Shown: positions 29,651-52,660 of the stretch, piece by piece
Numbering within the stretch: position 1 is the first letter of the stretch
How the letters are laid out: each line of letters begins with the position of its first letter
Source of the DNA: Comamonadaceae bacterium
Lineage (GTDB): Bacteria > Pseudomonadota > Gammaproteobacteria > Burkholderiales > Burkholderiaceae_C
Reading direction: 5' to 3'
DNA length: 64,000 bases
Assembly: GCA_947447355.1 (NCBI GenBank)
Contig: CANFJF010000004.1
Coordinates: 1 to 64,000, forward strand
The notes under the pieces: generated by a model
Told to the model about the DNA's origin: nothing
Databases searched by the model: none
The model's input: only the letters and a program-made list of their open reading frames with translations
Made by a program: the position numbers and the translations under genes

Positions 29651-29680
29651 TCACCCGGCCTGAAAAGCACATGCGGGTGA
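29651..29680 (-). promoter_or_regulatory. Expression-platform hairpin of the SAH riboswitch
   Basis: On the reverse strand TCACCCG (29680-29674) and CGGGTGA (29657-29651) form a perfect 7-bp stem. Its first two bases are also the last two of the aptamer's ACGCTC pseudoknot strand, so the two structures compete. No U-run follows, so control may be at Rho access, stability or translation rather than classic termination. Confidence 0.6.
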
Positions 29681-32707: not shown

Positions 32708-32758
32708 TAACTCCTGGAAAGTTGCAAACTTCGTGTCGATCCCCGCACGGATCAACCG

Positions 32759-34858: not shown

Positions 34859-34953
34859 GGTGTCGATCTGGGGTACTGCAATAACCTCTATTCTCACGGC
34901 AGAGGGGTGCGGACTGGCCTTCGGATCAAGCCAGCAGGCATAATAAAAAGTAC

Positions 34954-36937: not shown

Positions 36938-36979
36938 GCTTGTGTCCCTTTTGGTTTTTAATTCTTCAAGCCCATTCAC

Positions 36980-38137: not shown

Positions 38138-38376
38138 AGGTTCTCCAAGATGGCTTGCGCCAAACAAATACGACGGCCTGATTTTGTTTCCGCGACGACG
38201 CTTTGAGAGCTTCAGATTGCACCAGTAGTCATGAGGTAAGGTTATGTCTTGAGACCAATTTCAGCCCCAAGCCGACAGAAAACTCATGGCAAGGCCACAA
38301 ATGCGCATTGCCAACGTCGGGGATGTGAGGCAAAAATAAGCTTTTAAAAATAATTTCTTTTTAGACGGCACGACGC

Positions 38377-39717
38377 ATGACCACCACGACCCAAACTTTT
38401 GCGGCATTTGCTTGCAACCTGAACCGACAGCCGCTCGCGCCCGACGTCATTCACCACGCCAAACGCGCCGTGATCGACTGGTACGCGGCATGGCTGCCAG
38501 GCGCCGTGGTGGAACCGGCCACCCGACTCGAGCAGGCGCTGGCAGAAGATCTAGACCGCGGCAACGCAAAACTCGCGCTTGGGCGCGCTGCCAGTACCCG
38601 CACCGCCGCCTTGATCAATGGCACCGCAGCGCATACGGCGGAAGTCGATGACATTTACCGCGAAGCGATTTACCACCCTGGCGCGCCGACCATCGCCGCG
38701 GCTTGGGCCGTCGGCCAAGAGCAGCAAGCCAGCGGCCTGCAGGTGCTCAAGGCCGTAGTGGCCGGTTACGAAATTTCGACCCGCATCGGCGCCGCACTGG
38801 GCCGCGCTCATTACCAGTATTGGCACAACACCGGCACGGTCGGCAGCTTTGGCGCAGCAGCGGCAGCGGCTACTTTGTACGAGCTTGAACCTGCACCCTA
38901 CGCGCATGCCTTGGCGACCGTCGGCACTTTTGCAGCGGGCTTGCAGCAGGCCTTTCGCATGGATTCGATGTCGAAACCCTTGCACGCAGGACGGGCGGCC
39001 GAAGCCGGTGTGCTGGCGGCGCAGATGGCGCGCGCTGGCGTCACCGGGTCGCTGGATATTCTGGAGGGCGACGCCGGCTTGGGCCGCGCCATGAGCAATG
39101 GACCTGACTGGCTGGCAGCGGTCGCCACGCTCGGACGCGATTTTCATGTGACGCGCATGACCTTCAAGACCCACGCCTGCTGCGGCCATACCTTTGCCCC
39201 GATCGACGGTGCACTGGCCTTGCAACGGCAACTCGGCATCCGGGCTGACGACATCGAGACACTTCGCATCAGCACTTACCGTCCGGCACTGGACGTGGCC
39301 GGTAATCCCAATCCACAGACGGCGGCTGAAGCCCGCTTCAGCGTGCCCTACGTGGTGGCCACAGCGTTGCTGTATGGGAGTGTGCGCTTGTCGGCGTTTG
39401 ATGCCAGCCGACTGGCCGACCCGGCCATTCGTCAATTGATGCAACGCATTGAACTGTGTGTTGATCCAGCGATCGATGCCGCGTTCCCGGGCAAACGCGC
39501 CGCACACATCCACATTCAAACCCGCGATGGTCGCAGCGGTGAGCACCTGCAACCGACCCGCAAAGGCGATCCCGAAGAACCCCTGAGCGACACCGATCTG
39601 GACGACAAGTTCATGGAACTGGCCAGCCCCGTCATTGGCGACGCAACGGCTCGCCAGCTCCTCCACATCTTGTGGGCACTGGATGTCCAGCAAGACATCC
39701 GATCCCTGCAGCGCTGA
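38377..39717 (+). CDS. MmgE/PrpD family protein 1
   Basis: MmgE/PrpD-family protein, 446 residues (members include 2-methylcitrate dehydratase, cis-aconitate decarboxylase and iminodisuccinate epimerase). Family marks: LINGTAAHTAEVDDIYREAIYHPGAPTIAAAWAV, VVAGYEISTRIGAALGRAHY, WHNTGTVGSFGAAAAAA, KPLHAGRAAEAGVLAAQMA and FKTHACCGHTFAPIDGAL. It acts on a polar carboxylic acid by dehydration, isomerisation or epimerisation. It stands alone between the acyl-CoA dehydrogenase (divergent) and iclR (convergent); two more family members lie 10 kb downstream. Confidence 0.92.
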   Translation: MTTTTQTFAAFACNLNRQPLAPDVIHHAKRAVIDWYAAWLPGAVVEPATRLEQALAEDLDRGNAKLALGRAASTRTAALINGTAAHTAEVDDIYREAIYHPGAPTIAAAWAVGQEQQASGLQVLKAVVAGYEISTRIGAALGRAHYQYWHNTGTVGSFGAAAAAATLYELEPAPYAHALATVGTFAAGLQQAFRMDSMSKPLHAGRAAEAGVLAAQMARAGVTGSLDILEGDAGLGRAMSNGPDWLAAVATLGRDFHVTRMTFKTHACCGHTFAPIDGALALQRQLGIRADDIETLRISTYRPALDVAGNPNPQTAAEARFSVPYVVATALLYGSVRLSAFDASRLADPAIRQLMQRIELCVDPAIDAAFPGKRAAHIHIQTRDGRSGEHLQPTRKGDPEEPLSDTDLDDKFMELASPVIGDATARQLLHILWALDVQQDIRSLQR

Positions 39718-39738
39718 ATCACTGGCGGTAACCCGCCG

Positions 39739-40584
39739 TCACACCCCCAGCCGCATCCTTTCGTAGGCGTTGCTGTTGAGCTGAATGGACAACTCCTCCG
39801 CATACTTTTGCAGCAGAGCGATCTGGGCTGGGTGCGGTGGGTCAGGGATTTCCTGCACCGAACCCACGATGCCGAGCGAGCCGGCAAGCACATTGTCGTC
39901 CCGAAAAACAGGCACCACGACCGTGTTGATGCCCACCATCATTTCCCCCGCAGCGTAGTCATAGAGCCGCTGGCGGATCAGCGGCAACCGGGCTAAAACG
40001 CTCTCGCGATCAATCAGAGAGCTGTCGGTTTCGGGCAGTAGCGCACTCGACAACAGCGCTTGCTGTGCCTCAGCTGAGGCATACGCCAGCGTCAGCCGCC
40101 CAAAGGCTGAGCAATGCGGCAAAGGCCGGTTTCCGGGCTTCACCGAGATGCAAATCCGTGCATAAATATTGTCCGCGGTGGCAATGACCATTGGCTGATC
40201 ATTGATCGGAATGGCCAAAACGGCCGTCTGCCGCAGTTCGTCGCGCAACTTGATCAGATACGGCTCCGCACGGTAGCGCAGATCGAATTGCGCCCCCGCC
40301 GCCTCCCCGAGTTGAAACAGGCGCCATCCGAGCCGATAGCGTTCAGTCGCGTGCTCCTGCTCGACGATCCCCATCTCTTTGAGGGTGGCCAGATGCCGGT
40401 GGATGCGGGGTTTGGTCTCCCCCATCTTGTCGGCCAGTTCCGTGATGCGCATGGCACGCCGTGCCAGTGCCATCTCGTTGAGCATGCGCATGGCCACTTT
40501 GACAGCATCCACTGAGTTCGGTTTACGCAGGGCGGAACCCCTGCGTGCCTTCAAGGGTGTCGTTTGAGAGTCAGATGTAGGCAT
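39739..40584 (-). CDS. IclR-family transcriptional regulator
   Basis: IclR regulator, 281 residues. A winged helix-turn-helix at about 25-90 (RRAMRITELADKMGETKPRIHRHLATLKEMGIVEQE) is followed by a GAF-like effector domain (about 105-275, with LPHCSAFGRLTLAYA). The ATG giving MPTSDSQTT is three bases inside a possible TTG. It is divergent from the G3E GTPase gene heading the forward catabolic operon, with 150 bp between, and is the best candidate regulator of that operon. Confidence 0.92.
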   Translation of the reverse strand: MPTSDSQTTPLKARRGSALRKPNSVDAVKVAMRMLNEMALARRAMRITELADKMGETKPRIHRHLATLKEMGIVEQEHATERYRLGWRLFQLGEAAGAQFDLRYRAEPYLIKLRDELRQTAVLAIPINDQPMVIATADNIYARICISVKPGNRPLPHCSAFGRLTLAYASAEAQQALLSSALLPETDSSLIDRESVLARLPLIRQRLYDYAAGEMMVGINTVVVPVFRDDNVLAGSLGIVGSVQEIPDPPHPAQIALLQKYAEELSIQLNSNAYERMRLGV

Positions 40585-40737
40585 CAATATTGCTTATAAA
40601 TATATTTCAACAAAGCACAAATAATACGGATGAACAGTACTTCGCGCCATGCTAGAGTCGTCTAGCGTAATAGAATTTCGCAGAGCGTAAAAATAACTTC
40701 CGAAAAATTCATCCCTGAGTCCTGTGTTAATCCATCC
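40585..40737. promoter_or_regulatory. Divergent control region, iclR / catabolic operon
   Basis: A+T-rich 150-bp gap between the divergent iclR and G3E GTPase genes. It contains imperfect dyads, for example GAATTTCG and CGAAAAATTC flanking about 24 bases near 40671-40712. Operon promoters and the IclR operator should be here, but no -35/-10 pair is clear enough to assign. Confidence 0.5.
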
Positions 40738-41775
40738 ATGATCGTTTTTGACTTGCTCACCGGCTTTCTCGGCAGTGGAAAAACCACCCTGCTGAACGCC
40801 TTCCTGAAAACGGGGGCAGGGACAGACACGGCCGTCATCGTCAATGAATTCGGGGCTATTGGCCTAGATCAACTGCTTTACAAAGAGCTTTCCGAAGACG
40901 TCTACCTGCTGGACTCCGGTTGCCTGTGCTGCACCGTGACCCACTCGCTGCGCGAGACCTTGCTGGAAATTAAGAACCTCTCCAACCGACTCGGGCGCCC
41001 GCCCTTGCAACGCGTGGTCATCGAGACCACCGGCCTGGCCGACCCGCTGCCGGTTTTGCACGCCCTGCTTGGCGACAAGGCCTTGATGCCCCACTTTAGG
41101 CTCGGGCAAGTCATCACCACCGTTGATGCGGTGCAAGGCGCAGCGCAACTGGTGCAGCACATGGAGTCCCGCCGCCAAGCCAGCGTCGCCGAGCATTTGG
41201 TCATCACAAAAACTGACATGGCGAACCCCGACCAGCTGCAATCACTGAGACAACACCTGCATCAAATCAACCCACGGGCGCAGGTCACGGAATCGGTGGA
41301 CGGACATGCCGCAGCGTCAGTGTTCAGCACGGCGGTTGGTGACCGCAGCCTGCAACTCCTGCCCACCGCAACTTTCTTCATCCCTGGCACCTCCGCTCCG
41401 CGCGGCGTCTTGACCCACGGTAGCGGCAGCGACATCGGCTCATGGAGCACGTTCACCGACATCCGGCCAACCTGGGTCGGCATCGCGGCGTGGTGGAACT
41501 TGCTCATCCTACAGTTCGGCAACCAGTTGCTGCGCTGCAAGGGGTTGCTGTCAGTGAACGATGCACGTCCCTTCGTCCTGATTCAAGGTGTCGGCAAGGT
41601 CTTCCACTCTCCGACCTTCTTGCCCACATGGCCAGACGCCGATCCGCGGGGGCGTATTGTTTGTATTGGCTCAAAGCTCGACCCGGTCTGGTTACAGGCC
41701 AGTTTGCGTGCACTGACCATCACAGAAGCATCGGCACGCCCCCAAAACCTGAACGAATTGAACGATTGTTTTTAA
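40738..41775 (+). CDS. G3E (CobW/COG0523) GTPase, putative metallochaperone
   Basis: P-loop GTPase of the COG0523/CobW branch of the G3E family, 345 residues. Walker A GFLGSGKTT (9-17), the metal-binding GCLCC motif (Cys62, Cys64, Cys65) of CxCC type, VIETTGLADP switch region, base-recognition TKTD, and a C-terminal CobW_C domain (WSTFTDIRPTWVGIAAWW...). Members such as ZNG1 insert zinc or other metals into client enzymes. It is first in the operon and lies 13 bp before a dihydropyrimidinase-like metalloenzyme, its obvious candidate client. Confidence 0.92.
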   Translation: MIVFDLLTGFLGSGKTTLLNAFLKTGAGTDTAVIVNEFGAIGLDQLLYKELSEDVYLLDSGCLCCTVTHSLRETLLEIKNLSNRLGRPPLQRVVIETTGLADPLPVLHALLGDKALMPHFRLGQVITTVDAVQGAAQLVQHMESRRQASVAEHLVITKTDMANPDQLQSLRQHLHQINPRAQVTESVDGHAAASVFSTAVGDRSLQLLPTATFFIPGTSAPRGVLTHGSGSDIGSWSTFTDIRPTWVGIAAWWNLLILQFGNQLLRCKGLLSVNDARPFVLIQGVGKVFHSPTFLPTWPDADPRGRIVCIGSKLDPVWLQASLRALTITEASARPQNLNELNDCF

Positions 41776-41788
41776 GGAACACACAACC

Positions 41789-43183
41789 ATGACGACTGCG
41801 GAATTCGTACTGCGAGACGGTACTTTGGTGGATGCGACGACGGACGGAACCACCATGGACTTGCTGATTCGTGACGGCAAAATTGTCGGCCACCTGGCGC
41901 CCGGCACACCGGTTGACGCCTCGATCCCCGTCAAGTCGGCCAAGGGCCTCCACGTCTTTCCGGGACTCATCGATGCGCATGTGCACTTCGGTTTCGGCGA
42001 GAAGATCACCGAGTATGAAACCGAGACCATCTATGCCGCGCAGGGCGGCTTCACCACGGTACTCGGTTACTTCCTGAACAACGAAGCCTATGCGGATGTG
42101 TTTCAGCGCGAGCAGGGCTATGCCAAAACGCGCGCGTATATCGACTACGCCTTTCACTTCAGCACGGCCAATGAAGAACACATCAAAGAACTGGCGGACT
42201 ACGTCAAGACCTACGGCGTCACCTCGTTCAAGTACTTCATGAACTTCAAGGGTGAAGAAGGCCGCTATCTGGGCCTGGACGGCACCGATGACGGCTACTT
42301 CTACGAGCTGCTCGCCAAGGCGGCCTCCTTGGGTGACATCAAGGTGGTCTGCCACACTGAGAACATCGAGATCGTCAACCGCATTCGCAGCCGGATCCAA
42401 GCCGAAGGTGGCTCAACACTGAAAGATTGGTCAATGGCCAAGCCGGCCTTCACGGAAGCCGAAAGCTCGTTACGCGCCATGTATTTTGCCGAGCACTTGG
42501 GCGCGCAAATCTACATTCCGCACATCAGTACACGACTGGCGCTTGATGAAGTCCGCAAATGGCGCAGCCGTTATGACAAAATTTTTGTCGAAACCTGTCC
42601 GCATTACCTGACCCACACCGAAGACTCCGATCTGGGCGGCATGGGCAAAGCCAATCCCCCGTTCCGCAGCGCTGACGATGTCGACGCCATGTGGGAAGGT
42701 TTGCGCGATGGGTCGATCAACGTGGTCGCCTCCGACCATTGCCCACGTAAACGGGTCACCAAAGACAAACCCCTTTGGCTGGCGTCGCAGGGGTTCCCCG
42801 GCACCGCCACCATCCTACCGGTGCTGCTGCACGAGGGTTACCACAAGGGACGTCTGAGCCTGCGCCGAATCGCTGAAGTACTGACCTCGGCACCAGCTCG
42901 AATTTTCAATGTCGCCCCCGCCAAAGGCAGCCTGGAAGTGGGCAGCGATGCAGACATCACGCTGGTCGATATCAACCTGGCGCGCGTGGTGAACCCCGCT
43001 GAGCTGGGCTCCTACTCTGACTACAGCTTGTACGAAGGCCAGACGTTCAAGGGTTGGCCTGTCGAAACGATCGTGCGGGGGAAGACCGTCATGGCCAACG
43101 GCAAGATCACCGGACAGCCTGGCTACGGCAGCTATATCTTCCGCTCACTCTCTACACCCACCACCACAGGAGCATCAACATGA
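41789..43183 (+). CDS. Dihydropyrimidinase/hydantoinase-like amidohydrolase
   Basis: Cyclic amidohydrolase of the dihydropyrimidinase/hydantoinase/allantoinase superfamily, 464 residues. The binuclear metal site is complete: His64 and His66 (DAHVHFG), Lys148 in TSFKYFMNF (the carbamylated lysine), His189 (VCHTEN), His245 (IPHIST) and Asp316 (ASDHCPR). It hydrolyses a cyclic amide bond in a ring such as dihydropyrimidine, hydantoin or imide. AAGGA precedes the ATG. The next gene overlaps it by ATGA and encodes an amidase-type hydrolase suited to the ring-opened product. Confidence 0.93.
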   Translation: MTTAEFVLRDGTLVDATTDGTTMDLLIRDGKIVGHLAPGTPVDASIPVKSAKGLHVFPGLIDAHVHFGFGEKITEYETETIYAAQGGFTTVLGYFLNNEAYADVFQREQGYAKTRAYIDYAFHFSTANEEHIKELADYVKTYGVTSFKYFMNFKGEEGRYLGLDGTDDGYFYELLAKAASLGDIKVVCHTENIEIVNRIRSRIQAEGGSTLKDWSMAKPAFTEAESSLRAMYFAEHLGAQIYIPHISTRLALDEVRKWRSRYDKIFVETCPHYLTHTEDSDLGGMGKANPPFRSADDVDAMWEGLRDGSINVVASDHCPRKRVTKDKPLWLASQGFPGTATILPVLLHEGYHKGRLSLRRIAEVLTSAPARIFNVAPAKGSLEVGSDADITLVDINLARVVNPAELGSYSDYSLYEGQTFKGWPVETIVRGKTVMANGKITGQPGYGSYIFRSLSTPTTTGAST

Positions 43184-43854
43184 AACCATGGGACGGCATC
43201 ATCAGCGAAGAAGAGCAACGGGCTTACCGCGCAGCCGGTTTCGGACGTCCGACCGGTGTCGGCAAGCGCCCCGCCCTGTTGATCATTGACGTGCAATACC
43301 GCACCACGGGAACCACACCACTGCCTTTCTTTGAGGCGATCAAGGAATTCCCCACCAGCTGCGGTGATGTGGCCTGGAAAGCCGTTGACAACATCAAGCT
43401 GTTGGTCGACGAATTTCGACAGCGCGGCTGGCCCGTCTTGTACCCGCATGTGGCGCCCAAGAACAAAAATGAAGGCGGACGTCTGGCCGAAAAAGTGCCG
43501 GCCATCATGAACATTCCGGCGCATGGCTACGAGTTTGTCAAGGAAATCGCGCCGCAACCGGGCGATGTGTTACTACCCAAAAAACATCCCAGCGCTTTTT
43601 TCGCCACAGCCCTGACAAGTCACCTGATCGATCTACAAGCAGACACACTGGTGATCACCGGCTGCAGCACCAGCGGCTGCGTGCGGTCCAGCGTGGTCGA
43701 CGCCTTCGCCCTGAACTTCAAAGTATTGGTGCCGCAGGACGCGGTCTATGACCGGAGTCGTGTCTCCCACGCGGTCAACCTGTTTGACATGGCCGAGAAA
43801 TATGCCGATGTCGCCACCACCACTGAAACACTAGAAACCTTGCGAAAAATTTGA
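43180..43854 (+). CDS. Isochorismatase-fold amidohydrolase (N-carbamoylsarcosine amidase-like)
   Basis: Cysteine hydrolase of the isochorismatase-like family, 224 residues. The catalytic triad is Asp37 (LLIIDVQ), Lys134 (LPKKHPSAFFAT) and Cys167 (GCSTSGCVRSS). The order and the long N-terminal part (WDGIISEEEQRAYRAAGFGRPTGVGKRP) resemble N-carbamoylsarcosine amidase and maleamate amidase. It should release ammonia and/or CO2 from a carbamoyl or half-amide. The ATG overlaps the upstream stop (ATGA) and has AGGAG seven bases before it. Together the pair parallels hydantoinase-carbamoylase or imidase-half-amidase systems. Confidence 0.92.
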   Translation: MKPWDGIISEEEQRAYRAAGFGRPTGVGKRPALLIIDVQYRTTGTTPLPFFEAIKEFPTSCGDVAWKAVDNIKLLVDEFRQRGWPVLYPHVAPKNKNEGGRLAEKVPAIMNIPAHGYEFVKEIAPQPGDVLLPKKHPSAFFATALTSHLIDLQADTLVITGCSTSGCVRSSVVDAFALNFKVLVPQDAVYDRSRVSHAVNLFDMAEKYADVATTTETLETLRKI

Positions 43855-43864
43855 TGTCCCTCGT

Positions 43865-43892
43865 GGCGGCCAAATCCGGCCGTCTTTTTATT
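43865..43892 (+). terminator. Intra-operon attenuator-like terminator
   Basis: GGCGGCC and GGCCGTC pair (one G-U) around AAATCC and are followed by TTTTTATT. It lies between the amidohydrolase pair and the ABC receptor gene in the same direction, so it should only partly end transcription or mark a separate transport transcript. Confidence 0.75.
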
Positions 43893-43915
43893 GTTCCAAC
43901 TGTCCTGGAAAGAAA

Positions 43916-45076
43916 ATGAAACCTTCGAAACGACGTAATTTGTTGGCGCTCTCGGCGCTGGTCATCAGCGGCGCGGCGCTTTCGCCTGCAGCTTGGGCGC
44001 AAGCCAAAGAAACCCTGAAGTTCGGCCTTGCGATGCCGTTGTCAGGCTCGCAGGCGCTGTATGGGGCCGACCAAGTCAAGGCGGCGCAGTGGGCCGTGGC
44101 GGACATCAACGCCAAGGGCGGTGTCAACGGCAAGCAACTCGAAATGATCCTCTTGGACACCCAAGCCGATCCCCAAGTTGGCATCAATGCCGTCAAGCGT
44201 CTGACCAGTGTCGACAAGGTGCCAGTGTTCATCACGGCTTGGAGCGCAGTGGTCAAAGCGGTCGCCCCTATCGCCAACCGTGACAAAGTGCTTGAGCTGA
44301 GCGTCGGCGCCAACTCCCCCGACATTGCCAAACTCGGCGACTACGTCTACACAACGTTTCCCCTGGCGGACGTTGATGTCAGCGGCTTGGCCAAGTACAC
44401 CCACACAACGCTCGGCAAGAAGACAGCCGCCGTCATGTATATCAACAACGACAGTGGTGTCGAAGGCGCTGCCATCTACAAAAGCGTGTTCGAAAAAGCT
44501 GGCGGCAAGGTCGTGGCCTATGAGGCCTACGACCCGAAAGCCACGGAGTTCACAGGCGCGCTACTGAAGGTGCGTGTTGCCAACCCGGAGATCATCCATA
44601 TTCAGGGCTTGGTGTCAGACCTGCCGCAAGTCATTGCCCAAATGCGCCAACTCGGCTTGCAGCAACGTGTGTCCACTTATGCCGCGGGCTACAACCCCAA
44701 GGTCATTGAGCAACTGGGTGCGGCGGCTGAAGGCCTGATCGTGACGTCTCTTGCCCCTGGCGCTTCTGACAACGCCAACGTCGGCGCCTTCGTGAAACGC
44801 TGGACAGACACTGAAAAGCGCGTGCCTAACGGCCTGCCTTACACCCAGTATTTGTACGACGGCCCCTACCTTGTTGCCGAGCTGTACAAGTGGGTAGAGA
44901 AAAACAAACTGCCAGCCACCGGCGAAAACATGCGCAAGGCATTGGTCACCGTGAAGAATTTTGATCTCCCAATGACGGGTGCACTGCAAGTCGGTGAAGA
45001 TCACCGCGTTTCTAAACCGGTGTACTTGCTGACTGTGGACAAAGGTCAGTTCGTTCCGCTGGCAACCATCAAGTAA
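43916..45076 (+). CDS. Branched-chain-type ABC substrate-binding protein
   Basis: Periplasmic receptor of the LivJ/LivK (HAAT) family, 386 residues. A Tat-like signal peptide comes first (MKPSKRRNLLALSALVISGAALSPAAWAQ, with an RR pair though not the full Tat motif). Then LKFGLAMPLSGSQALYGADQVKAAQWAVADINAKGGVNGKQL, the family hallmark. GGAAAG precedes the ATG. It is followed by livH, livM, livG and livF, giving a complete importer. Given the neighbours, the ligand is more likely a cyclic amide, ureide or small acid than an amino acid. Confidence 0.93.
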   Translation: MKPSKRRNLLALSALVISGAALSPAAWAQAKETLKFGLAMPLSGSQALYGADQVKAAQWAVADINAKGGVNGKQLEMILLDTQADPQVGINAVKRLTSVDKVPVFITAWSAVVKAVAPIANRDKVLELSVGANSPDIAKLGDYVYTTFPLADVDVSGLAKYTHTTLGKKTAAVMYINNDSGVEGAAIYKSVFEKAGGKVVAYEAYDPKATEFTGALLKVRVANPEIIHIQGLVSDLPQVIAQMRQLGLQQRVSTYAAGYNPKVIEQLGAAAEGLIVTSLAPGASDNANVGAFVKRWTDTEKRVPNGLPYTQYLYDGPYLVAELYKWVEKNKLPATGENMRKALVTVKNFDLPMTGALQVGEDHRVSKPVYLLTVDKGQFVPLATIK

Positions 45077-45087
45077 GTAACCGAGGT

Positions 45088-45124
45088 CCGGACAGCGGCG
45101 CCCAAACGGGCTGTCGCTGTCCGG
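45088..45124 (+). other. Strong hairpin between receptor and permease genes
   Basis: CCGGACAGCG and CGCTGTCCGG form a perfect 10-bp stem with an inner GCCC/GGGC stem. It lies between the binding-protein gene and livH without a T-run. Such hairpins often protect upstream receptor mRNA so that receptor is made in excess of permease. Confidence 0.7.
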
Positions 45125-45144
45125 CTTTCAAGTAAAGGGTCGGT

Positions 45145-46080
45145 GTGATCGATATATCCATCTTGTTGCAGATCATTTGGACGGGGCTGGCAGCTTCGAC
45201 CTATGCGGTTCTGTTTGCCGTGGCGTTTTCGCTCGTCCTCAAGGTCGTCAAAGTTTGGAACTTTGCGCAGGCCGGCATCATGGCTTTGTCGTTTTATGTC
45301 ATGTATGCCGCACACCAAAAATGGGGCCTGCCCTTGCTGCCATCCGTCGGCATCGGCCTGACAGTGACCATTGCCGCGAGCGTGTTCATGGACACTTATG
45401 GTCTGCAAACATTGCGCGCCAGAAACTCGCCGAACCTGACCTTTTTTATCTTCACCTTGGTGGTGTCTGAATTCTTGGCTTACTTGCTCGCGATGATTTT
45501 TGGCACCGAGCCGGTTGCCTTGACGCAGAGCATCATGTCGGGGGTCAACATCATCAACGGCATTGTCATCAGCAATTGGGACCTTCAGGCGCTCGCCGTC
45601 ACGATCGTTTTGTTGGTTCTGCTCTATCTCTTTATTGACCGGACGCGCGACGGCCAATTCATGGCCGCCGTTGCGGACAACCCTGATTTGTCGCGACTTT
45701 ACGGCATCAACGTCAAACGCGCTTACGTCATCACCTTTGTTCTCGCATCCATGCTGATCACAGCCGGTATGTATCTGTTTGGAACCCGAGCGTCGATGAT
45801 TCCGAACACGCCGCTACAGATGATGTTGTTCGCCGTTATTTCGACATTGCTAGGCGGTATGGGCCGGATTTTTGGCGCTGCGCTGGCAGCGATCGGACTG
45901 TCGCTGATTCAGGGTTTGAGCATCTTCGTCATTCCCTCGCAATGGCAGAGTCTGATTCTTTACGTCTTTCTTTTCATCACGATCCTGTTCTTCCCACAAG
46001 GCGTCAACATGCAAAAGTTCAAACAACTGATGCGGACTGCGAGAAAAACAATGCCCAGCGCACAACAAAAAGGGCCCTGA
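45145..46080 (+). CDS. livH: Branched-chain-type ABC permease LivH-like
   Basis: Inner-membrane permease of the HAAT ABC family, 311 residues, eight or so helices. The start is GTG with AAAGGG upstream. Family features are LQIIWTGLAASTYAVLFAVAFSLVLKVVKVWNFAQAGIMAL and GINVKRAYVITFVLASMLITAGMYLFG, followed by the ATPase-coupling loop. It forms the translocation pore with the LivM-like protein, whose gene follows after 2 bp. Confidence 0.92.
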   Translation: MIDISILLQIIWTGLAASTYAVLFAVAFSLVLKVVKVWNFAQAGIMALSFYVMYAAHQKWGLPLLPSVGIGLTVTIAASVFMDTYGLQTLRARNSPNLTFFIFTLVVSEFLAYLLAMIFGTEPVALTQSIMSGVNIINGIVISNWDLQALAVTIVLLVLLYLFIDRTRDGQFMAAVADNPDLSRLYGINVKRAYVITFVLASMLITAGMYLFGTRASMIPNTPLQMMLFAVISTLLGGMGRIFGAALAAIGLSLIQGLSIFVIPSQWQSLILYVFLFITILFFPQGVNMQKFKQLMRTARKTMPSAQQKGP

Positions 46081-46082
46081 CC

Positions 46083-46943
46083 ATGGAATATATCGTCTCA
46101 CTGGTGGTTCTGGTCGGGATCTACGTGATCCTCAGTTCAAGCTTTAACCTCGTTATTGGATTCGGCGGGCTGATCAGTATTGCCCACCCCATTTTCTTTG
46201 CACTGGGCGCCTACACCACCGGCTTGCTGGCCATTCACTTCAACACCCACCCGGTGCTCGCGGTTTTAGCAGGAGGGGTTGTCGCGTTTTTATCGTCGAC
46301 CATGCTGTCCCTGCCTTCGCTGCGCATCTCGGGGGACTATTTGCTGATCACCAGCATCGGCTTTCAGTTGGGCTTGCTCGAAGTCATCAAGCACCTCGGC
46401 TTCACGGGCGGCGCGAGCGGCCTTGGAAATATTCCGAACGTGGTCGTGGGGCCCTCACGAAGCGCTGTCTTTGCGGTGATCTCGTGCCTGATTGCCGCGG
46501 CGGTGGTGCTGATGATTCGCTGGCTGCTGACGGGGCCTTATGGTCGCGTCATTTCTGCCATGCGTGACGATGAACTGGCATTTTCTGCGCTCGGTCGAAA
46601 CGCGATGGCCATCAAAATGTCGATCTTTGCCATCGGCTCAGGATTTGCAGGCATCGCAGGCGGCATTTATGCCTATTACTACCAGTACATCAGTCCCGAC
46701 CAGTTTGAAATTCTCCAATCGGCCATGTTGCTGACCATGGTGGTGGTCGGCGGCATGGGCTCACACCTTGGCCCGGTGGTCGGTGCTGTGCTGCTGCTCT
46801 TGCTACCGCAAGCCATCAGCTTCTTGAATTTACCGCCCAACGTCATGGCTCCGCTTCAGGGCGTCATCTTCACGTCGTTGGTCATCGTCTTTTTGTTCTG
46901 GCGGCCGCAGGGCTTGATTGCGCCAGCCAAGCGTCAGTCATAA
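46083..46943 (+). CDS. livM: Branched-chain-type ABC permease LivM-like
   Basis: Second permease subunit, 286 residues. MEYIVSLVVLVGIYVILSSSFNLVIGFGGLISIAHPIFFALGAYTTG is the family start, and the coupling region is SAMRDDELAFSALGRNAMAIKMSIFAIGSGFAGIAGGIYAYY. The ATG is 2 bp after the livH stop; a longer frame inside livH is spurious. No ATPase domain is fused, unlike some LivM-LivG fusions. Confidence 0.93.
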   Translation: MEYIVSLVVLVGIYVILSSSFNLVIGFGGLISIAHPIFFALGAYTTGLLAIHFNTHPVLAVLAGGVVAFLSSTMLSLPSLRISGDYLLITSIGFQLGLLEVIKHLGFTGGASGLGNIPNVVVGPSRSAVFAVISCLIAAAVVLMIRWLLTGPYGRVISAMRDDELAFSALGRNAMAIKMSIFAIGSGFAGIAGGIYAYYYQYISPDQFEILQSAMLLTMVVVGGMGSHLGPVVGAVLLLLLPQAISFLNLPPNVMAPLQGVIFTSLVIVFLFWRPQGLIAPAKRQS

Positions 46944-46956
46944 AGGGCATGAAGAC

Positions 46957-47715
46957 ATGAATGCGTTGATTTCCTTGAATGACGTCTGCAAAAGCTTTGG
47001 CGGCATCGTCGTCGCAGACCATATTTCTATCGACATCCATCGGGGCGAAATCCTCGGACTGATCGGTCCCAACGGGGCCGGCAAGACCTCGCTTTTCAAT
47101 TTGATCTCGGGTGTTTATCCGGTAGACGCCGGCACCATTTCGGTCGCCGGTCAATCACTCGACGGTTTGGCTTTGCATCGACGGGCGCGGCTTGGCGTGG
47201 CACGCACTTGGCAAAACATGCGCCTGTTTGCGACCATGAGCGTGCTGGAAAACATGCTGGTGGCGCCGCGCGACTATCCCGGCGAGAAAATCTCGCACAT
47301 TATTTTTCGCCCGAAACAGGTTGCGGCCGCCAGTCAGCTGCTGCGTGAACGTGCCATGGTGATCTTAGGCAGGATGAAGCTCGAAGCGATTGCACACGCC
47401 AATGTCAACGACATCACCTTTGGCCAGCAAAAACTCGTCGGGCTGGCCCGCGCGCTGATGAACGACGGCGACTGCCTGCTGCTTGATGAGCCGATGGCTG
47501 GCGTCGAAGGCGTCGCCTACGACACGATGAAAACCATCGTCAGGGAAGAAGCCGCCGCCGGGCGAGCTGTCTGCGTGGTTGAACACAACGTGTCCTTCAT
47601 CAAAGATCTGTGCAACAGCGCCGTGTTCATGGCCAGCGGAAAAATACTCGAACGCGGAAGCGTCGACACCCTGCTGTCCAGCAAGACCCTGGCGGACTTG
47701 TATTTCGGCGCGTGA
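46957..47715 (+). CDS. livG: Branched-chain-type ABC ATPase LivG-like
   Basis: ATPase subunit, 252 residues. Walker A GPNGAGKTS, Q-loop region TWQNMRLF, a degenerate signature (FGQQKLVGLARAL instead of LSGGQ/LSYGQ), Walker B LLLDEPMAG followed by V, and the switch His in VVEHNVSF. AAAGGG precedes the ATG. It powers the LivHM-like pore with its partner ATPase. Confidence 0.94.
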   Translation: MNALISLNDVCKSFGGIVVADHISIDIHRGEILGLIGPNGAGKTSLFNLISGVYPVDAGTISVAGQSLDGLALHRRARLGVARTWQNMRLFATMSVLENMLVAPRDYPGEKISHIIFRPKQVAAASQLLRERAMVILGRMKLEAIAHANVNDITFGQQKLVGLARALMNDGDCLLLDEPMAGVEGVAYDTMKTIVREEAAAGRAVCVVEHNVSFIKDLCNSAVFMASGKILERGSVDTLLSSKTLADLYFGA

Positions 47716-47744
47716 GCGGCGTTTAACCAGAAAGAGAGCCTACG

Positions 47745-48428
47745 TTGCTGCAAGTCGAAAACCTCAACGCTCACTACGGAAAGCTGCAAGTTTTGCATGA
47801 GCTTTCTCTGACCATCCATGACGGCGAGCGCGTCGGCATATTCGGGCACAACGGCGCCGGAAAAACCACGCTGCTCAAGAGCTGCGTCGGCGATATTGCA
47901 CAGATCAGCGGCAACATCCGCTATCACGGCCAGCCCATCTTGCCAGGTCAAGTTCACCTCAACGTGCGCCAAGGCATTGGCTTCGTGCCCCAAGGCCACA
48001 ACGTCTTTCGTGAACTGTCGGTGGCGCAAAATTTGCGGATTTCGGGCTTGATGCATGACCCGGCTTATGCCGAAACGGTTTATGGCATCTTCCCCATTCT
48101 CAAAGAAAGAAGCGTGCAGCAGGCGGGTTCTTTGAGTGGTGGTCAGCAGCAAATGCTGGCGCTCGGGATGGCACTGATGACGCGCCCGAAACTGTTGCTG
48201 TTGGACGAACCCACCACGGGGTTGGCACCGATCATTGTTAGAGATGTCCTTGCATCGATCCGGTCAATCAACCAGGCCGAAGGAACAACCGTGATCATCG
48301 TCGAGCAAAACGTTCCCGCCACGCTGCAACAAGTTGAGCGTGCGGTTGTTCTCAAATCCGGTCGCATTATTTTCGATGGCCCCAGCAAGCAATTGCTGGA
48401 GCAAGAAAACCTGTGGCACTTATTTTAA
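47745..48428 (+). CDS. livF: Branched-chain-type ABC ATPase LivF-like
   Basis: Second ATPase, 227 residues from a TTG start with GAGAG about seven bases upstream. Walker A GHNGAGKTT, signature LSGGQQQ, Walker [13 protein letters not shown] and switch His in IVEQNV (Gln in place of His at the canonical spot, as usual for LivF). The TTG start may lower its yield relative to LivG. The MmgE/PrpD gene follows after 4 bp. Confidence 0.93.
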   Translation: MLQVENLNAHYGKLQVLHELSLTIHDGERVGIFGHNGAGKTTLLKSCVGDIAQISGNIRYHGQPILPGQVHLNVRQGIGFVPQGHNVFRELSVAQNLRISGLMHDPAYAETVYGIFPILKERSVQQAGSLSGGQQQMLALGMALMTRPKLLLLDEPTTGLAPIIVRDVLASIRSINQAEGTTVIIVEQNVPATLQQVERAVVLKSGRIIFDGPSKQLLEQENLWHLF

Positions 48429-48432
48429 AAAT

Positions 48433-49854
48433 ATGAAAATCAATCCATTGAGAGAAGCGGCAGGTCAGGGTGTTATTGAGTTAGTGCAATGGGCCGTCGC
48501 GCAGGAATTCAGCGATATTCCTGCCAACACCTTGCAAAAGACAGTGATGGTAATTGCAGATGATCTGGCAGCCATGTTGTCGGCAGAGAATGAGCCCCAA
48601 GTCGCTGCCGCCCACGCCAAACTAACTGACATTGGCACAGGCAGAACGGCGTCACTGTTTCGGCATGATCGCCCGCAGTTGTCACCCTTACAAGCCGCCT
48701 TGGGCAATGCCTTATCGGCCAGTTGGAATGAACTGGACGAGGGCTATCGAAAGGCGGTTTGCCATGCCGGTCTGTACACCTTGCCCGTCTTGCTGGCTAT
48801 TGCCGAGAGTGAAAATATTTCTACAGCAGACGTGATTCGTGCCAGCACACTCGCCTATGAGGTGACGGCACGATTTGCCAGAACCTGGCGCTTCCGAGAA
48901 CTGAAAATTCACCCGCACGCCTTGTTCAACGCCGTCGGTACGACAGCGGCCATTGGCTTTTTGCGGCGTTTGCCGGCAGGCCTGATGGTCAGCGCCTTGT
49001 CCAACGCCAGCACATTGGGCGTGGTCGGCCCCTACAACCAAGCGATTCACGGCGCGTTGATTCGTAACGCTTGGGCAGCCGCCGGCATCGTCAATGGTTT
49101 CCAGGCGATTGAGTGGGCCGAAGCCGGTATTGTGGGCCTGCCTGAAACACCTCACGACGTCTATTTTGAGACACTGGGCAGCGAGGTCCATATTGAAGAT
49201 CTCACCTCGGAACTGGGAACTGACTGGGCGGTGGCCTCCGGTTATCACAAGATCAACGCTTGCTGTCAGTACGCCCATTCGGCGATCGAGGCGGTGCAAG
49301 AAATTCTGTCCGTCCACCCGTTACTGATGGGGGGCGAACGGATCGCCCGGATTCAAATACAAACCCACCGCTTGGGGATGACCTTAGACAACTACCGCCC
49401 CGTCACCACCCTGGGCGCCAAATTCTCCTTGCCCCACGCTTTGGCGGCATCCTTGGTCTACGGACACGGCGGTGCAGAAGCCTTCGACACGCCATCAGTG
49501 GCAGATGCCAGAGTGGCCCGACTGCGTGATCTTGTCGAGATGCAACAGGTCGCTGAAGAATTGCCTTGGCCGCATGATCGGCCGGCTTTTGTCACGCTGC
49601 TTGACGCGAACGGCCGCAGCTACAGCGCCAATTGCCTGAGTGCAAGGGGTGGCCCCGACAAGCCCTTCAGCGACGAAGAGCTGTGGGGCAAGATCGATGG
49701 CTTGTCTCGCGCATCGGCACCCGGCCTGTGCACGGCCCTGCAATCACTTCACGCCCGCTGCAGTGACAACTCAAACGGCCAGGCTTTCGCCCAACCCTGG
49801 TGTGACCTTGTCGATCAATTTTTCAGCCCCGCGGCGTCGACCGTCAAACCGTGA
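48433..49854 (+). CDS. MmgE/PrpD family protein 2
   Basis: MmgE/PrpD family member, 473 residues, diverged from copies 1 and 3. Recognisable parts are GYRKAVCHAGLYTLPVLLAIAE, AYEVTARFARTWRF, HPHALFNAVGTTAAIGFL, GPYNQAIHGALIRNAWAAAGIVNGF, YHKINACCQYAHSAIEAVQE and FSLPHALAASLVYG. It should isomerise, dehydrate or decarboxylate a small carboxylic acid. It is inside the ABC-importer operon, 4 bp after livF. A longer frame from 48334 overlaps livF and is spurious. Confidence 0.9.
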   Translation: MKINPLREAAGQGVIELVQWAVAQEFSDIPANTLQKTVMVIADDLAAMLSAENEPQVAAAHAKLTDIGTGRTASLFRHDRPQLSPLQAALGNALSASWNELDEGYRKAVCHAGLYTLPVLLAIAESENISTADVIRASTLAYEVTARFARTWRFRELKIHPHALFNAVGTTAAIGFLRRLPAGLMVSALSNASTLGVVGPYNQAIHGALIRNAWAAAGIVNGFQAIEWAEAGIVGLPETPHDVYFETLGSEVHIEDLTSELGTDWAVASGYHKINACCQYAHSAIEAVQEILSVHPLLMGGERIARIQIQTHRLGMTLDNYRPVTTLGAKFSLPHALAASLVYGHGGAEAFDTPSVADARVARLRDLVEMQQVAEELPWPHDRPAFVTLLDANGRSYSANCLSARGGPDKPFSDEELWGKIDGLSRASAPGLCTALQSLHARCSDNSNGQAFAQPWCDLVDQFFSPAASTVKP

Positions 49855-49877
49855 ACGTCGGAACAGGAATCAATGTC

Positions 49878-51284
49878 ATGAATGCGAATGCCACCCCATG
49901 GGACATGGAAGTCGATGTGCTTGTCATCGGTGCGGGAGGCTGCGGCCTCACTGCCGCTATTGCCGCCTATGACGATGGTGCCCATGTAGCCATCGTCGAG
50001 AAGCGTGAGAAGCCTGGCGGTAACACGGCACTGAGCACGGGATCGATTCCTGGCGCTGGCAGCCGGTTTCAGCGAGCCGCCCACATTGAAGACTCACCCG
50101 AGACCATGATCGCCGACCTGCGTCGCGTTGCCGGCGAGCATGAACTCAGCGCTGTCAGCGACACACTGGCCGCCATATCGGCTGAACTTTGCGAATGGCT
50201 GGTCGACCGTGTGCCGGCGCGCATGAGCCTGATCACCGACTACTGCCATGTCGGCCATTCGCTACCGCGCCTGCATGCGCCCGCCTCGCGCCGTGGCCAA
50301 GACCTGATGGACGACTTGCTGGCGGGGGTCACACAACGCGACATTCCCCTGGCCGTTGGTAACCCGGTGCAGTCGCTGCTGACGTCAGCGCAAGGCGAGG
50401 TGATTGGCGCGCTGATTGGCGGCAAAGGCGTCGAATCGACCCGCATCAAAGCCGGCAAGGTTATTTTGGCCTGCAATGGTTTTGCCGGGAACCGCGCACT
50501 GGTCCAAGAGTTTTGCCCCGAGATTGCAGACGCCGAGTATTTTGGCGCCCTTGGCAGCCAAGGCGAAGCCGTGCAATGGGGACGTGAGCTGGGCGCCGGA
50601 CTGGCCAATATGGGCGCCTATCAAGGATATGCAGCCGTCGCTTACCCGCACGGCTCGCTGCTGTCGTGGACCACCCTGGAAAAAGGCGGCATCTTGGTCA
50701 ATTCACGCGGCGAACGCTTTGGCAACGAAGACATAGGCTACTCAGGCTATGCCCGCATGGTGCTAGCGCAACAGACTGAAGTCTTTGCGATTTTTGATGA
50801 CCGCATCAAGGCCATCGCCGACAAGGAAGATGAGTTCCGCGATCTGGTCGATCTCGGTGGTGTCAAGTCGGCGACCAGCGTTGCCGAACTGTCTGCGCTG
50901 TTCAAACTGCCGGCCGAGACGCTGGCCAAGACATTGAGTGACTACAACCAGTCCGCCGACGGGAAAGCGCTGGATGGCTTCGGGCGCCACCAATACGGTC
51001 TGGCACCGCTGCTGGCGAACTACTGGATTTGCCGGGTCACGCCGGGCCTGTTCCACACGCAAGGCGGACTGGCCGTCGACACGGAAGGTCATGTGCTGAA
51101 GCCTGACGGCAGTCGCATCCCAAATCTGTTCGCGGGTGGCGGTGCCGCGGGCGGCATCAGCGGTCAGACCGGCGCAGCGGGCTATGCCTCCGGCAATGGA
51201 CTCCTGACCGCCATCGGCCTGGGATACCTGAGCGGCAAGGCGGCGGCCAAAGAACTGAAAGCAGCTGGGACCCTTTCGCCATGA
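49878..51284 (+). CDS. FAD-dependent oxidoreductase, fumarate reductase-like
   Basis: Flavoprotein of the fumarate reductase/succinate dehydrogenase (FAD_binding_2) family, 468 residues. The dinucleotide motif DVLVIGAGGCGLTAAIAA with VEKREKPGGNTALS is at the start; GGGAAGGISGQTGAAGYASGNGLLTAIGLGYLSG is the C-terminal FAD motif. Similar proteins include tricarballylate dehydrogenase TcuA and 3-ketosteroid dehydrogenases. It probably oxidises or reduces an alpha,beta bond of an acid. The ATG has AGGA ten bases upstream; GTG at 49851 is an alternative. Overlaps the next gene by ATGA. Confidence 0.9.
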   Translation: MNANATPWDMEVDVLVIGAGGCGLTAAIAAYDDGAHVAIVEKREKPGGNTALSTGSIPGAGSRFQRAAHIEDSPETMIADLRRVAGEHELSAVSDTLAAISAELCEWLVDRVPARMSLITDYCHVGHSLPRLHAPASRRGQDLMDDLLAGVTQRDIPLAVGNPVQSLLTSAQGEVIGALIGGKGVESTRIKAGKVILACNGFAGNRALVQEFCPEIADAEYFGALGSQGEAVQWGRELGAGLANMGAYQGYAAVAYPHGSLLSWTTLEKGGILVNSRGERFGNEDIGYSGYARMVLAQQTEVFAIFDDRIKAIADKEDEFRDLVDLGGVKSATSVAELSALFKLPAETLAKTLSDYNQSADGKALDGFGRHQYGLAPLLANYWICRVTPGLFHTQGGLAVDTEGHVLKPDGSRIPNLFAGGGAAGGISGQTGAAGYASGNGLLTAIGLGYLSGKAAAKELKAAGTLSP

Positions 51285-52660
51285 CGCTCAGCGGACGTAT
51301 TGCCGATTTTGGCTTGACCACCCACTTGGAGACCATTCCGCAAGATGTGGCACAGCTGGCGCGCCTGCACACACTCGATGCCTTGGGTGTTGGCATCGCT
51401 GCTTCGGCAGGCACTGTTCAACGCCGAATGTCCAGCAGCCTCTTGCGGCTGAATGCACACACCGACGGCTGCACGGTGCTCGGCAGTGCAGACCCAGTCA
51501 ATGGTGCCAGTGCTGCGCTGCTCAATGGCAGCTTCATCCACGCGCTCGAATATGACGACACGCACATGGCGTCCATCGTGCATGGCAGCGCTGTGCTGGT
51601 CCCCACCGCGCTAGCGGCCACAGAGCAACACCACTTGGCCCTGGGCGACCTGATCCGCTTGGTGACGATCGGTTGGGAAGTGCTGATTCGCGTCGGCTTG
51701 GCGGCACCAGGCGCTTTCCAGAAACGCGGTTTTCAGGTGACGTCCGTCGGCGGTACGCTGGTGTCGGCTTGGATGGCCGGCCTCGCGGCGGGCGCCAGCC
51801 GCGACGAGCTGATCTCGGCTCAAGGCATCGCCGGTAGCCAGGCCTCGGGGATTTTCGAATTTTTGACTGACGGCGCCACCGTCAAAGCGATGCACCCGGG
51901 CTGGGCCGCCCACTCGGGTGTCATGGCGGCACAGCTGGCAGCGGCCGGCATGACCGGACCCGCGACTGTGTACGAAGGCCGCTTCGGCCTGTACAAAACC
52001 TACACCGACGACCACGGCGCTGGCGAGGTGCTGCGTCATGAACTGGACAGTCTGGGGCAGGACTGGCTGCTGCGCGCTGCGGCTTTTAAATTGTTCCCCT
52101 GCTGCCACTACATTCACCCCTTCCTCGAAGGCGTTTTACAGCTGGCTGTGCAGCAGCCCTCGCTGAAAGACATCGAACGCATCGAGTGCCAGGTGCCGGC
52201 CGGCGCCGCTGCCATCATTTGCGAACCTTGGGATCGCAAACAGACGCCTGGCATTTTGAACGAAGCGAAATACAGTCTCCCCTATTGCATGGGACTCGCC
52301 TTCTTGGGCATTCCGATCACCGCTAGCCATTTTTTATCGGGGCAGGTGAATGCCGACGCCGTCGCATTTGCCCAAAAAATAAGTTGGACGCCAATGCTGG
52401 ATGCCAACTTCCCGAAAAAGTTTGAAGCCGAAATAGGCATCCACTTCCGGAACGGTCAGACAGCCAGAACCCGCATTGACCAGGTCAAGGGCAGTGCCGA
52501 GCGTCCCGCATCAGCGGCTGAGATTCAAGCCAAGTTCATCGACAACACGCGAGCACTTTATGCACCGGATGAACAGCAGCGCCTGATCGACATGCTGTTG
52601 GAAGGCAATGCAAACCGACCTGTTGCAGAACTGAGTTCCCTGCTGCGCACATTCAAGTGA
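51281..52660 (+). CDS. MmgE/PrpD family protein 3
   Basis: Third family member, 459 residues: LARLHTLDALGVGIAASAGTVQRR, LLNGSFIHALEYDDTHMASIVHGSAVLVPTALA, GWEVLIRVGLAAPGAFQKRGFQVTSVGGTLVSAWMAG, KAMHPGWAAHSGVMAAQLA and FKLFPCCHYIHPFLEGVLQ. The HALEYDDTHM motif and GFQVTS match the decarboxylase/dehydratase fold. The start overlaps the flavoprotein stop, so they are translationally coupled. It is the last gene of the forward catabolic operon. Paralogy with copies 1 and 2 is clear by motif but identity is low. Confidence 0.92.
   Translation: MTLSGRIADFGLTTHLETIPQDVAQLARLHTLDALGVGIAASAGTVQRRMSSSLLRLNAHTDGCTVLGSADPVNGASAALLNGSFIHALEYDDTHMASIVHGSAVLVPTALAATEQHHLALGDLIRLVTIGWEVLIRVGLAAPGAFQKRGFQVTSVGGTLVSAWMAGLAAGASRDELISAQGIAGSQASGIFEFLTDGATVKAMHPGWAAHSGVMAAQLAAAGMTGPATVYEGRFGLYKTYTDDHGAGEVLRHELDSLGQDWLLRAAAFKLFPCCHYIHPFLEGVLQLAVQQPSLKDIERIECQVPAGAAAIICEPWDRKQTPGILNEAKYSLPYCMGLAFLGIPITASHFLSGQVNADAVAFAQKISWTPMLDANFPKKFEAEIGIHFRNGQTARTRIDQVKGSAERPASAAEIQAKFIDNTRALYAPDEQQRLIDMLLEGNANRPVAELSSLLRTFK

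Follow-up and report, generated by a model that had tools for sequence, protein, structure and literature searches.

Organization of the operon

The window, the whole stretch of DNA analysed here, comprises positions 1 to 64,000 of the forward strand of contig CANFJF010000004.1 from the 3.95 Mb draft genome of a Comamonadaceae bacterium (assembly GCA_947447355.1). At positions 39739-52660 it contains a conserved block of genes in the order G3E-HYD-ICH-SBP-LivHMGF-PrpD2-FAD-PrpD3, headed by a divergent gene of an IclR-family regulator (Table 1). HYD stands for a cyclic amidohydrolase, ICH for an isochorismatase-fold hydrolase, SBP for a substrate-binding protein, and FAD for a flavoprotein. We propose, with moderate confidence, that the block is an operon under IclR control that serves the catabolism of a cyclic imide.

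The operon starts at the divergent promoter between the genes of IclR and the G3E GTPase, and ends with PrpD3. Families were assigned by Pfam scores above the gathering threshold, and NCBIfam curated cut-offs were used for finer names. All gene families that a first-pass annotation of positions 38377-52660 had listed are present at the places it gave, and the tight gene spacing it described is borne out by 4-bp overlaps at the HYD/ICH, PrpD2/FAD, and FAD/PrpD3 junctions. The importer is complete for a branched-chain (Liv/HAAT) ABC type, with a binding protein, two permeases, and two ATPases identified by Pfam. The start of LivM was set at the first ATG past the LivH stop; the listed LivM open reading frame (ORF) of a same-genus genome (L029) likewise opens just after LivH.

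The first-pass annotation placed IclR and a third MmgE/PrpD protein, PrpD1, at the operon head. IclR does adjoin the operon, but on the minus strand, and it separates PrpD1 from the other genes. PrpD1 was rejected as an operon member since neither of two same-genus genomes (L029 and L030/L031) has its orthologue next to the operon; the stretches fetched from them contain no orthologue of PrpD1 or of the adjacent acyl-CoA genes. A close PrpD1 orthologue (93%) was seen only in L032, the 98% relative.

Table 1 Features of the conserved operon and of its surroundings in the window.
Feature	Position	Strand	Basis or remark
IclR-family regulator	39739-40587	-	Pfam IclR_C, HTH_IclR
Palindromic operator candidate CGTAATAGAATTTCGC	40666-40681	+	Divergent IclR/operon promoter region
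G3E (CobW/YjiA-type) GTPase, putative metal chaperone	40738-41775	+	Pfam cobW, CobW_C
HYD, hydantoinase/dihydropyrimidinase-superfamily cyclic amidohydrolase, proposed imidase	41789-43183	+	TIGR02033, PDB 1nfg
ICH, isochorismatase-fold hydrolase, proposed half-amidase	43180-43854	+	PDB best 3ot4
SBP, periplasmic substrate-binding protein, Liv type	43916-45076	+	Pfam Peripla_BP_6
LivH-type permease	45145-46080	+	Pfam BPD_transp_2
LivM-type permease	46083-46943	+	Pfam BPD_transp_2; ORF opens 45942
LivG-type ATPase	46957-47715	+	Pfam ABC_tran; start chosen, ORF opens 46918
LivF-type ATPase	47745-48428	+	Pfam ABC_tran
PrpD2, divergent MmgE/PrpD enzyme	48433-49854	+	Pfam MmgE_PrpD N and C; start chosen, ORF opens 48334
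FAD, flavocytochrome-c/urocanate-reductase-fold flavoprotein	49851-51284	+	Pfam FAD_binding_2
PrpD3, MmgE/PrpD enzyme, proposed hydratase/isomerase	51281-52660	+	Both Pfam domains; PDB best 7bra
PrpD1, MmgE/PrpD, outside the conserved operon	38377-39717	+	Pfam
AMI, amidase-signature protein, accessory second amidase candidate	30531-31811	-	Pfam Amidase
PDA, polysaccharide-deacetylase-fold protein of the PuuE/cyclic-imidase family, accessory second imidase candidate	31808-32755	-	Pfam Polysacc_deac_1; 3cl6 PuuE
ADP-forming acyl-CoA synthetase, accessory candidate	32759-34897	-	Pfam ATP-grasp_5, Succ_CoA_lig, CoA_binding_2
TctC-type tricarboxylate-binding protein, accessory candidate	35948-36979	-	Pfam TctC
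Acyl-CoA dehydrogenase, accessory candidate	36980-38167	-	Pfam Acyl-CoA_dh

Conservation of the gene block

The block is a conserved unit. Two same-genus genomes among 60 relatives searched with HYD hold a close HYD (86-87% identity), and both carry the entire block, IclR included, in identical order. The encoded proteins are 68-92% identical to those of the window, except for one G3E GTPase that aligns as pieces of 60% and 81%. Scanning a genome collection with HYD identified 73 loci, some of which end at contig ends, with HYDs that are 56-98% identical to that of the window apart from one at 41%. The nearest HYD in the named collection (98%) comes from a Polaromonas metagenome-assembled genome. 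The full SBP-LivHMGF-PrpD2-FAD-PrpD3 set is present in 21 of the 73 loci and partial sets in others, so that the neighbourhood, which the first-pass annotation had made open to refutation if unique to one genome, is recurrent. Genes of the G3E GTPase, ICH (at least 50% identity), and IclR (at least 50% identity) occur in 63, 58, and 22 of the 73 loci, respectively. Where both flanks span 3 kb or more, which is the case in 57 loci, ICH lies within 3 kb of HYD in 46 and the G3E gene in 51.

The operon partners also recur in different arrangements and in other lineages, among them a Bacillota-labelled metagenome-assembled genome (L100), Methylobacterium nodulans, L069, and L073. Carriers include Limnohabitans sp. 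Rim11 and Paralcaligenes ureilyticus DSM 24591. The order in Variovorax is IclR|SBP...PrpD3-G3E-HYD-ICH. Among 300 sampled genomes of the order to which the host belongs, HYD (E≤1e-80) was found in four and ICH (E≤1e-60) in three; three genomes have both, one of which is the genome of the window. A PrpD2 relative (E≤1e-40) is present in 23 of the 300 genomes, that of the window included, and three of the 23 hold HYD. The PrpD2 family is therefore not specific to the operon.

The palindrome between IclR and the G3E gene is alignable, with variation, ahead of the operon in the window and 22 other loci. It is kept where the operon order differs, as in Variovorax, L113, and L120, where the site precedes the SBP gene. 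Within the window, the palindrome has two matches with at most one mismatch, one of them perfect, and 0.09 are expected in shuffled sequences. A genome-wide regulon search with the 15-mer of the window, allowing two mismatches, returned one perfect and one two-mismatch site, so no lyase could be assigned by operator; the reversed control gave one site.

Active sites of HYD and ICH

HYD has the complete binuclear metal site and ICH the intact D-K-C triad that the first-pass annotation ascribed to them. The HYD metal ligands H64, H66, K148, H189, H245, and D316 are invariant in all 77 aligned sequences, and the ICH triad D37, K134, and C167 in all 71. Both alignments include the window, and stretches with less than 80% coverage or a stop were left out. 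HYD scores highest against dihydropyrimidinase and hydantoinase models, and its best match in the PDB is the D-hydantoinase 1nfg. Its score against TIGR02033 (D-hydantoinase/dihydropyrimidinase), 279 bits, is under the cut-off of 393. A protein of the Asp/Glu/hydantoin-racemase family, presumably belonging to the maleate isomerase superfamily, is encoded near HYD in five of the 73 loci, including L104 (11416-12246) and L064, where it lies beside HYD.

The PDB matches of ICH are, in order, 3ot4, 4l07, and the N-carbamoylsarcosine amidohydrolase 26st. We take 3ot4 to be NicF, the maleamate amidohydrolase of the nicotinate pathway. The loop after the first conserved aspartate is longer in ICH than in 3ot4, according to their alignment. 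ICH misses the cut-offs of RutB and biuret amidohydrolase (52.7 and 39.9 bits versus 378 and 370).

The G3E GTPase, previously suggested as a metal chaperone belonging to the system, is a frequent partner and not an obligatory one: the 63 loci that contain it are accompanied by others (L086, L100, and L101) that hold HYD and ICH without it.

PrpD2, PrpD3, and the flavoprotein

PrpD2 has no sequence match in the PDB at E≤0.001. Its AlphaFold model (pLDDT 86.5) has the MmgE/PrpD fold, with TM-scores of up to 0.77 to cis-aconitate decarboxylase and iminodisuccinate (IDS) epimerase. The residues H144, H195, R244, N245, K306, and H315 (ORF numbering) are conserved in 25 of 25 sequences. Judging by the predicted fold and its own invariant set of histidines, arginine, and lysine, PrpD2 looks like an active enzyme. 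PrpD3 matches B. subtilis IRG1 (7bra) best in the PDB, followed by 7e9d and IDS epimerase. Its residues D92, D93, H101, K202, and H205 are conserved in 27 of 27 sequences and align with conserved positions of B. subtilis IRG1 and IDS epimerase. The position that we take to be the active-site histidine of the family is glutamine in 25 of the 27, methionine in one, and histidine in one. Both proteins miss the cut-offs of 2-methylcitrate dehydratase PrpD (NF042438, 950 bits; NF006943, 575 bits): PrpD2 scores 22.9 bits with NF042438 only, and PrpD3 24.0 and 20.5 bits.

The fold of FAD resembles urocanate reductase and flavocytochrome c3 (Fcc3), the closest structure being the urocanate reductase 6t86 (TM-score 0.85). 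The previous label "fumarate-reductase-like" thus holds at the level of the superfamily, but not for function. FAD carries a tyrosine at the position of Fcc3 Arg402, which we presume to be the catalytic arginine of fumarate reductase, and a fumarate reductase role was rejected because of this replacement. Tyrosine is found there in 28 of 31 homologues (proline in two, valine in one) and in 16 of 16 sequences of set A5. The best PDB match of FAD is the Arg402Tyr mutant 1jrz (170.0 bits; wild type 1qjd, 166.1 bits). The position aligned with His365 is tyrosine in the window and in 23 of the 31 homologues, and histidine in five. FAD is also altered at the arginine near the C-terminus. Because the Arg402, His365, and C-terminal arginine positions are changed, the substrate of FAD is expected to be uncharged.

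Lyase and aconitase genes linked in relatives

A gene of the methylisocitrate-lyase superfamily (PEP-mutase/isocitrate-lyase) lies within 10 kb of HYD in 23 of the 73 loci, in 25 copies, and in six of eight further loci. The motif K[KR]CGH, the catalytic motif of methylisocitrate lyase PrpB and a mark of the C-C lyases of the superfamily, is present in 31 of 31 linked copies. About 1.75 copies would be expected by chance in the 1.325 Mb of loci, an estimate based on 188 family members in approximately 142 Mb of 30 hand-chosen host genomes, many of which have a linked copy. Scored within 6 kb of HYD in 81 loci, the lyase is present in 26, absent from 37, and not scorable in 18. The linkage state shifts at least ten times on a quick HYD tree, in which the tool flagged long branches and which does not distinguish gain from loss.

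The lyase gene is positioned inside the operon in L100 (ICH-HYD-lyase-SBP-Liv-PrpD2-FAD-PrpD3) and in M. nodulans (lyase-ICH-SBP-Liv-PrpD-FAD-PrpD-HYD). It follows G3E-HYD-ICH in L062, L068, L103, and Hydrogenophaga, and PrpD3 in L034. The aconitase gene acnA is directly ahead of HYD-ICH in Shinella, and one small gene intervenes in Antarctobacter. An aconitase gene adjoins the lyase gene in L064, L073, L092, and L104, that of L104 being scored as AcnA. The lyases of L038, L062, L103, and L114 clear the NCBIfam methylisocitrate-lyase cut-off (505-518 versus 353 bits). In Hydrogenophaga, a gene of tricarballylate dehydrogenase TcuA (596 bits, cut-off 369) lies about 11 kb from HYD. The genome of the window has ten lyase-family matches, none of them on its contig. 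Elsewhere in this genome (L107), a lyase gene of the same superfamily adjoins another isochorismatase-fold gene. In an Ottowia locus (L148, 3404-7910), a methylisocitrate-lyase-like gene stands beside prpF and acnD in a methylcitrate-cycle set.

Upstream PDA/AMI pair and other features

The genes of PDA and AMI form a pair upstream of the operon, outside the span of the first-pass annotation and absent from it. The two proteins are non-homologous to HYD and ICH. PDA scores 120 bits against allantoinase PuuE (TIGR03212, cut-off 424.6). Its putative link to cyclic imidases, the class of HxnM and of the P. putida YZ-26 enzyme, comes through the fungal HxnM, which the available part of PMC9304392 describes as related to PuuE and to a P. 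putida imidase. The PDA/AMI pairing is reminiscent of HxnM and HxnN in Aspergillus. L064 encodes both proteins 3-5 kb from HYD, the PDA at 78% identity and the AMI, about 3 kb away, at 57%. On a single contig of genome G277 (L092/L144/L145), the distances to HYD are about 3 kb for a PDA of 49% identity and about 12 kb for an AMI of 58%. Of eleven strong PrpD2 places (E≤1e-74) in genomes without HYD, seven were fetched; a PDA-type gene is within 10 kb of PrpD2 in four (L137, L138, L141, and L143), with AMI in three of them, and these genomes represent two families. Nine places hold close PDA homologues (at least 71% identity), and an MmgE/PrpD gene is adjacent in four of the five fetched. The proximity of PDA/AMI to MmgE/PrpD genes supports a common theme, short of proof, since PDA-type genes are frequent.

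A CapA/PGA_cap-like protein is encoded just past the operon (53119-54147, +); a CapA gene of the Shinella region likewise adjoins a PrpD gene. A UvrA-like protein of 1994 residues (54472-60456, -) contains repeated ABC/UvrA segments and is about twice the usual length of UvrA. An S-adenosylhomocysteine (SAH) riboswitch (29672-29745, -; Rfam RF01057, 56.8 bits) is located at the start of an S-adenosylhomocysteine hydrolase ORF (28135-29718). Two tandem copies of 142 bp, 92% alike, occupy positions 1609-1885.

Proposed pathway and alternative explanations

From the observed gene content, conservation, active-site residues, and recurrent linkage, we infer the reactions, their order, and the class of substrate as follows. 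The Liv-type importer would take up the ring compound. HYD, perhaps metallated with the help of the G3E GTPase, would open the imide to a half-amide, from which ICH would strip the amide nitrogen as ammonia, leaving an unsaturated dicarboxylate similar to an alkylmaleate or aconitate. PrpD3, together with PrpD2, may hydrate or isomerise this acid, and a methylisocitrate-lyase-type enzyme, linked in relatives and encoded elsewhere than in the window, may split the product into pyruvate or glyoxylate and a second acid, so that the remaining organic acid would enter central metabolism. The hydratase and lyase steps are drawn by analogy from the relatives. FAD probably introduces or eliminates a double bond in an uncharged ring substrate or early intermediate, and PDA/AMI may constitute a second, non-homologous imidase/amidase module. 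The earlier proposal of import, ring opening, deamidation, and dicarboxylate processing is still the best reading. A hydratase and a C-C lyase that follow two amide hydrolyses are more consistent with a nitrogen-free unsaturated dicarboxylate, and hence with an imide, than with a ureide. The linked aconitase and lyase genes thereby narrow the previous choice of amide, imide, or ureide, leaving the ureide as the main rival.

Several observations weigh against this proposal. The window contains neither a lyase nor an aconitase gene, the nearest lyase paralogues in its genome are 58-64% identical to the linked lyases, and 50 of the 73 loci show no lyase, some being cut by contig ends. Seven of the eleven scored linked lyases are under the methylisocitrate-lyase cut-off of 353/354 bits (L104, L117, L037, L084, L118, which is partial, L091, and L119), and two unlinked paralogues clear it (L112, from the genome of the window, and L150); the name methylisocitrate lyase is therefore not diagnostic. 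The lyase of L038 may be a housekeeping PrpB. No ICH of at least 50% identity is found in 15 of the 73 loci, some of them truncated by contig ends. The loci are kin and not independent samples, and distant HYDs (37-41% identity) may act on other substrates. The enrichment of PDA-type genes near HYD is weak, with eight copies in seven of the 73 loci versus about 2.6 expected, and such genes are common (112 in approximately 58 Mb). The families of HYD and PDA also include ureide hydrolases, the allantoinases, so that family alone leaves the imide class unfixed.

A cyclic ureide pathway is a somewhat unlikely alternative, in which HYD would open a hydantoin- or dihydropyrimidine-like ring, ICH would be an N-carbamoylase, and PrpD2 and PrpD3 would epimerise an amino(di)carboxylate. 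It agrees with the best-scoring models and D-hydantoinase structures of HYD, with the N-carbamoylsarcosine amidohydrolase match of ICH, and with the IDS epimerase match of PrpD3. Several sphingomonad loci (L084, L071, L080, and L115) additionally have, beside HYD and ICH, a further isochorismatase (37-41%) and HyuA/HyuB, which are of the ATP-dependent hydantoinase/oxoprolinase type. However, the aconitase and methylisocitrate-lyase-type genes found next to HYD in relatives imply an unsaturated acid free of nitrogen, HYD falls short of the dihydropyrimidinase cut-off, and a motif scan run without a positive control detected no aspartase/fumarase-type signature in the ORFs of the 73 loci. Scans of these loci for ammonia-lyase and aminotransferase motifs, likewise lacking a positive control, found none; in the Shinella record, a gene about 7 kb from HYD is annotated as a class III aminotransferase.

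It is also conceivable, if improbable, that the locus is a loose catabolic island tied together by common regulation, in which HYD, ICH, and the G3E GTPase serve one function and the transporter-PrpD-FAD block a second. Many loci have the trio but lack the block, PrpD2 relatives are mostly found in genomes without HYD, and MmgE/PrpD matches number 18 in the host genome. Nevertheless, the partners recur together across the gene orders and lineages described above. A six-membered imide route, for example from citrazinate through cis-aconitamide to cis-aconitate in a lower pyridine-carboxylate pathway, appears very improbable. Citrazinate is a tautomer of a dihydroxypyridine carboxylate, and its conversion to cis-aconitate would suit the position of AcnA beside HYD-ICH and the affinity of ICH to 3ot4, the presumed NicF. 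Yet cis-aconitate needs neither a dedicated lyase nor a pair of PrpD proteins, no pyridine-ring hydroxylase was recognised among about 30 neighbour proteins scanned, and the route was not found in openly licensed literature among the matches listed. A molybdopterin oxidoreductase is encoded beside HYD in L061. Riboflavin or lumichrome catabolism was considered and rejected, as the gene set in PMC12746152 differs and the term "isochorismatase" is absent from the available part of that text.

Returning to the cyclic imide, we speculate that the operon degrades disubstituted maleimides, with hematinic acid or methyl-ethyl/vinyl-maleimide as candidate substrates, an assignment that we regard as rather doubtful. 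Such compounds are the last ring fragments left when chlorophyll, heme, and bilins are broken down. After imide hydrolysis and deamidation, hematinic acid would become a one-carbon homologue of 2-methyl-cis-aconitate. A PrpD or aconitase acting with a methylisocitrate-lyase-type enzyme could then cleave this acid to pyruvate and glutarate. Two points make the idea attractive. According to the available part of PMC7318184, hematinic acid and alkylmaleimides arise by oxidation of chlorophyll and heme and have been detected in senescent leaves and in lake sediments; the leaves of that study itself yielded hematinic acid and no maleimides. Several HYD host records bear lake names, by our own reading of the record names.

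If our proposal is true, a widespread bacterial pathway would feed cyclic-imide ring opening into hydration and cleavage resembling those of the methylcitrate cycle. It would provide candidate substrates for four protein groups recorded as "MmgE/PrpD family", "FAD-binding protein", "dihydroorotase family", or "isochorismatase family". Were the substrates tetrapyrrole-derived maleimides, the genes would account for a missing step in chlorophyll and heme turnover, and the bacterial route would close the tetrapyrrole carbon cycle.

Comparison with known systems

No pathway with this gene set was found among the matches listed from openly licensed full-text literature, judged by titles and the openings of abstracts, in agreement with the earlier statement that no named pathway has this exact set. 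The hxn nicotinate pathway of Aspergillus nidulans employs the cyclic imidase HxnM and the amidase HxnN (PMC9304392). As proposed for the operon, a cyclic imide is opened to a half-amide, which is deamidated to a dicarboxylate, and HxnM, described as a relative of PuuE (PMC9304392), would belong to the same family as the PDA of the window. In contrast, HYD and ICH belong to other protein families than HxnM and HxnN, the hxn pathway is fungal with alpha-hydroxyglutarate as its product, and no PrpD, aconitase, or lyase is named in the available part of PMC9304392.

ICH shares its triad and fold with 3ot4, its closest solved sequence relative. However, the ring opener of the operon is HYD, and no 2,5-dihydroxypyridine ring-cleavage gene was recognised here, which sets the operon apart from the route of the protein that we take to be NicF. 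HYD has the superfamily and the metal site in common with hydantoinase/carbamoylase and dihydropyrimidinase systems, from which it differs by its score below the dihydropyrimidinase cut-off and by the hydratase- and lyase-type genes accompanying its relatives. In relatives, the linkage of MmgE/PrpD and aconitase genes with methylisocitrate-lyase-type genes is reminiscent of the methylcitrate cycle (PrpD, AcnD/PrpF, PrpB), whereas the acid proposed to enter here derives from a ring, and PrpD2 and PrpD3 are far under the PrpD cut-offs. FAD is in the same flavoprotein superfamily as TcuA, but its score of 142.5 bits against NF006130 is under the cut-off of 369. The enzyme families and imidase/half-amidase pathways are thus already known, and what appears to be new is their combination with a PrpD pair, a flavoprotein, and methylisocitrate-lyase-type partners.

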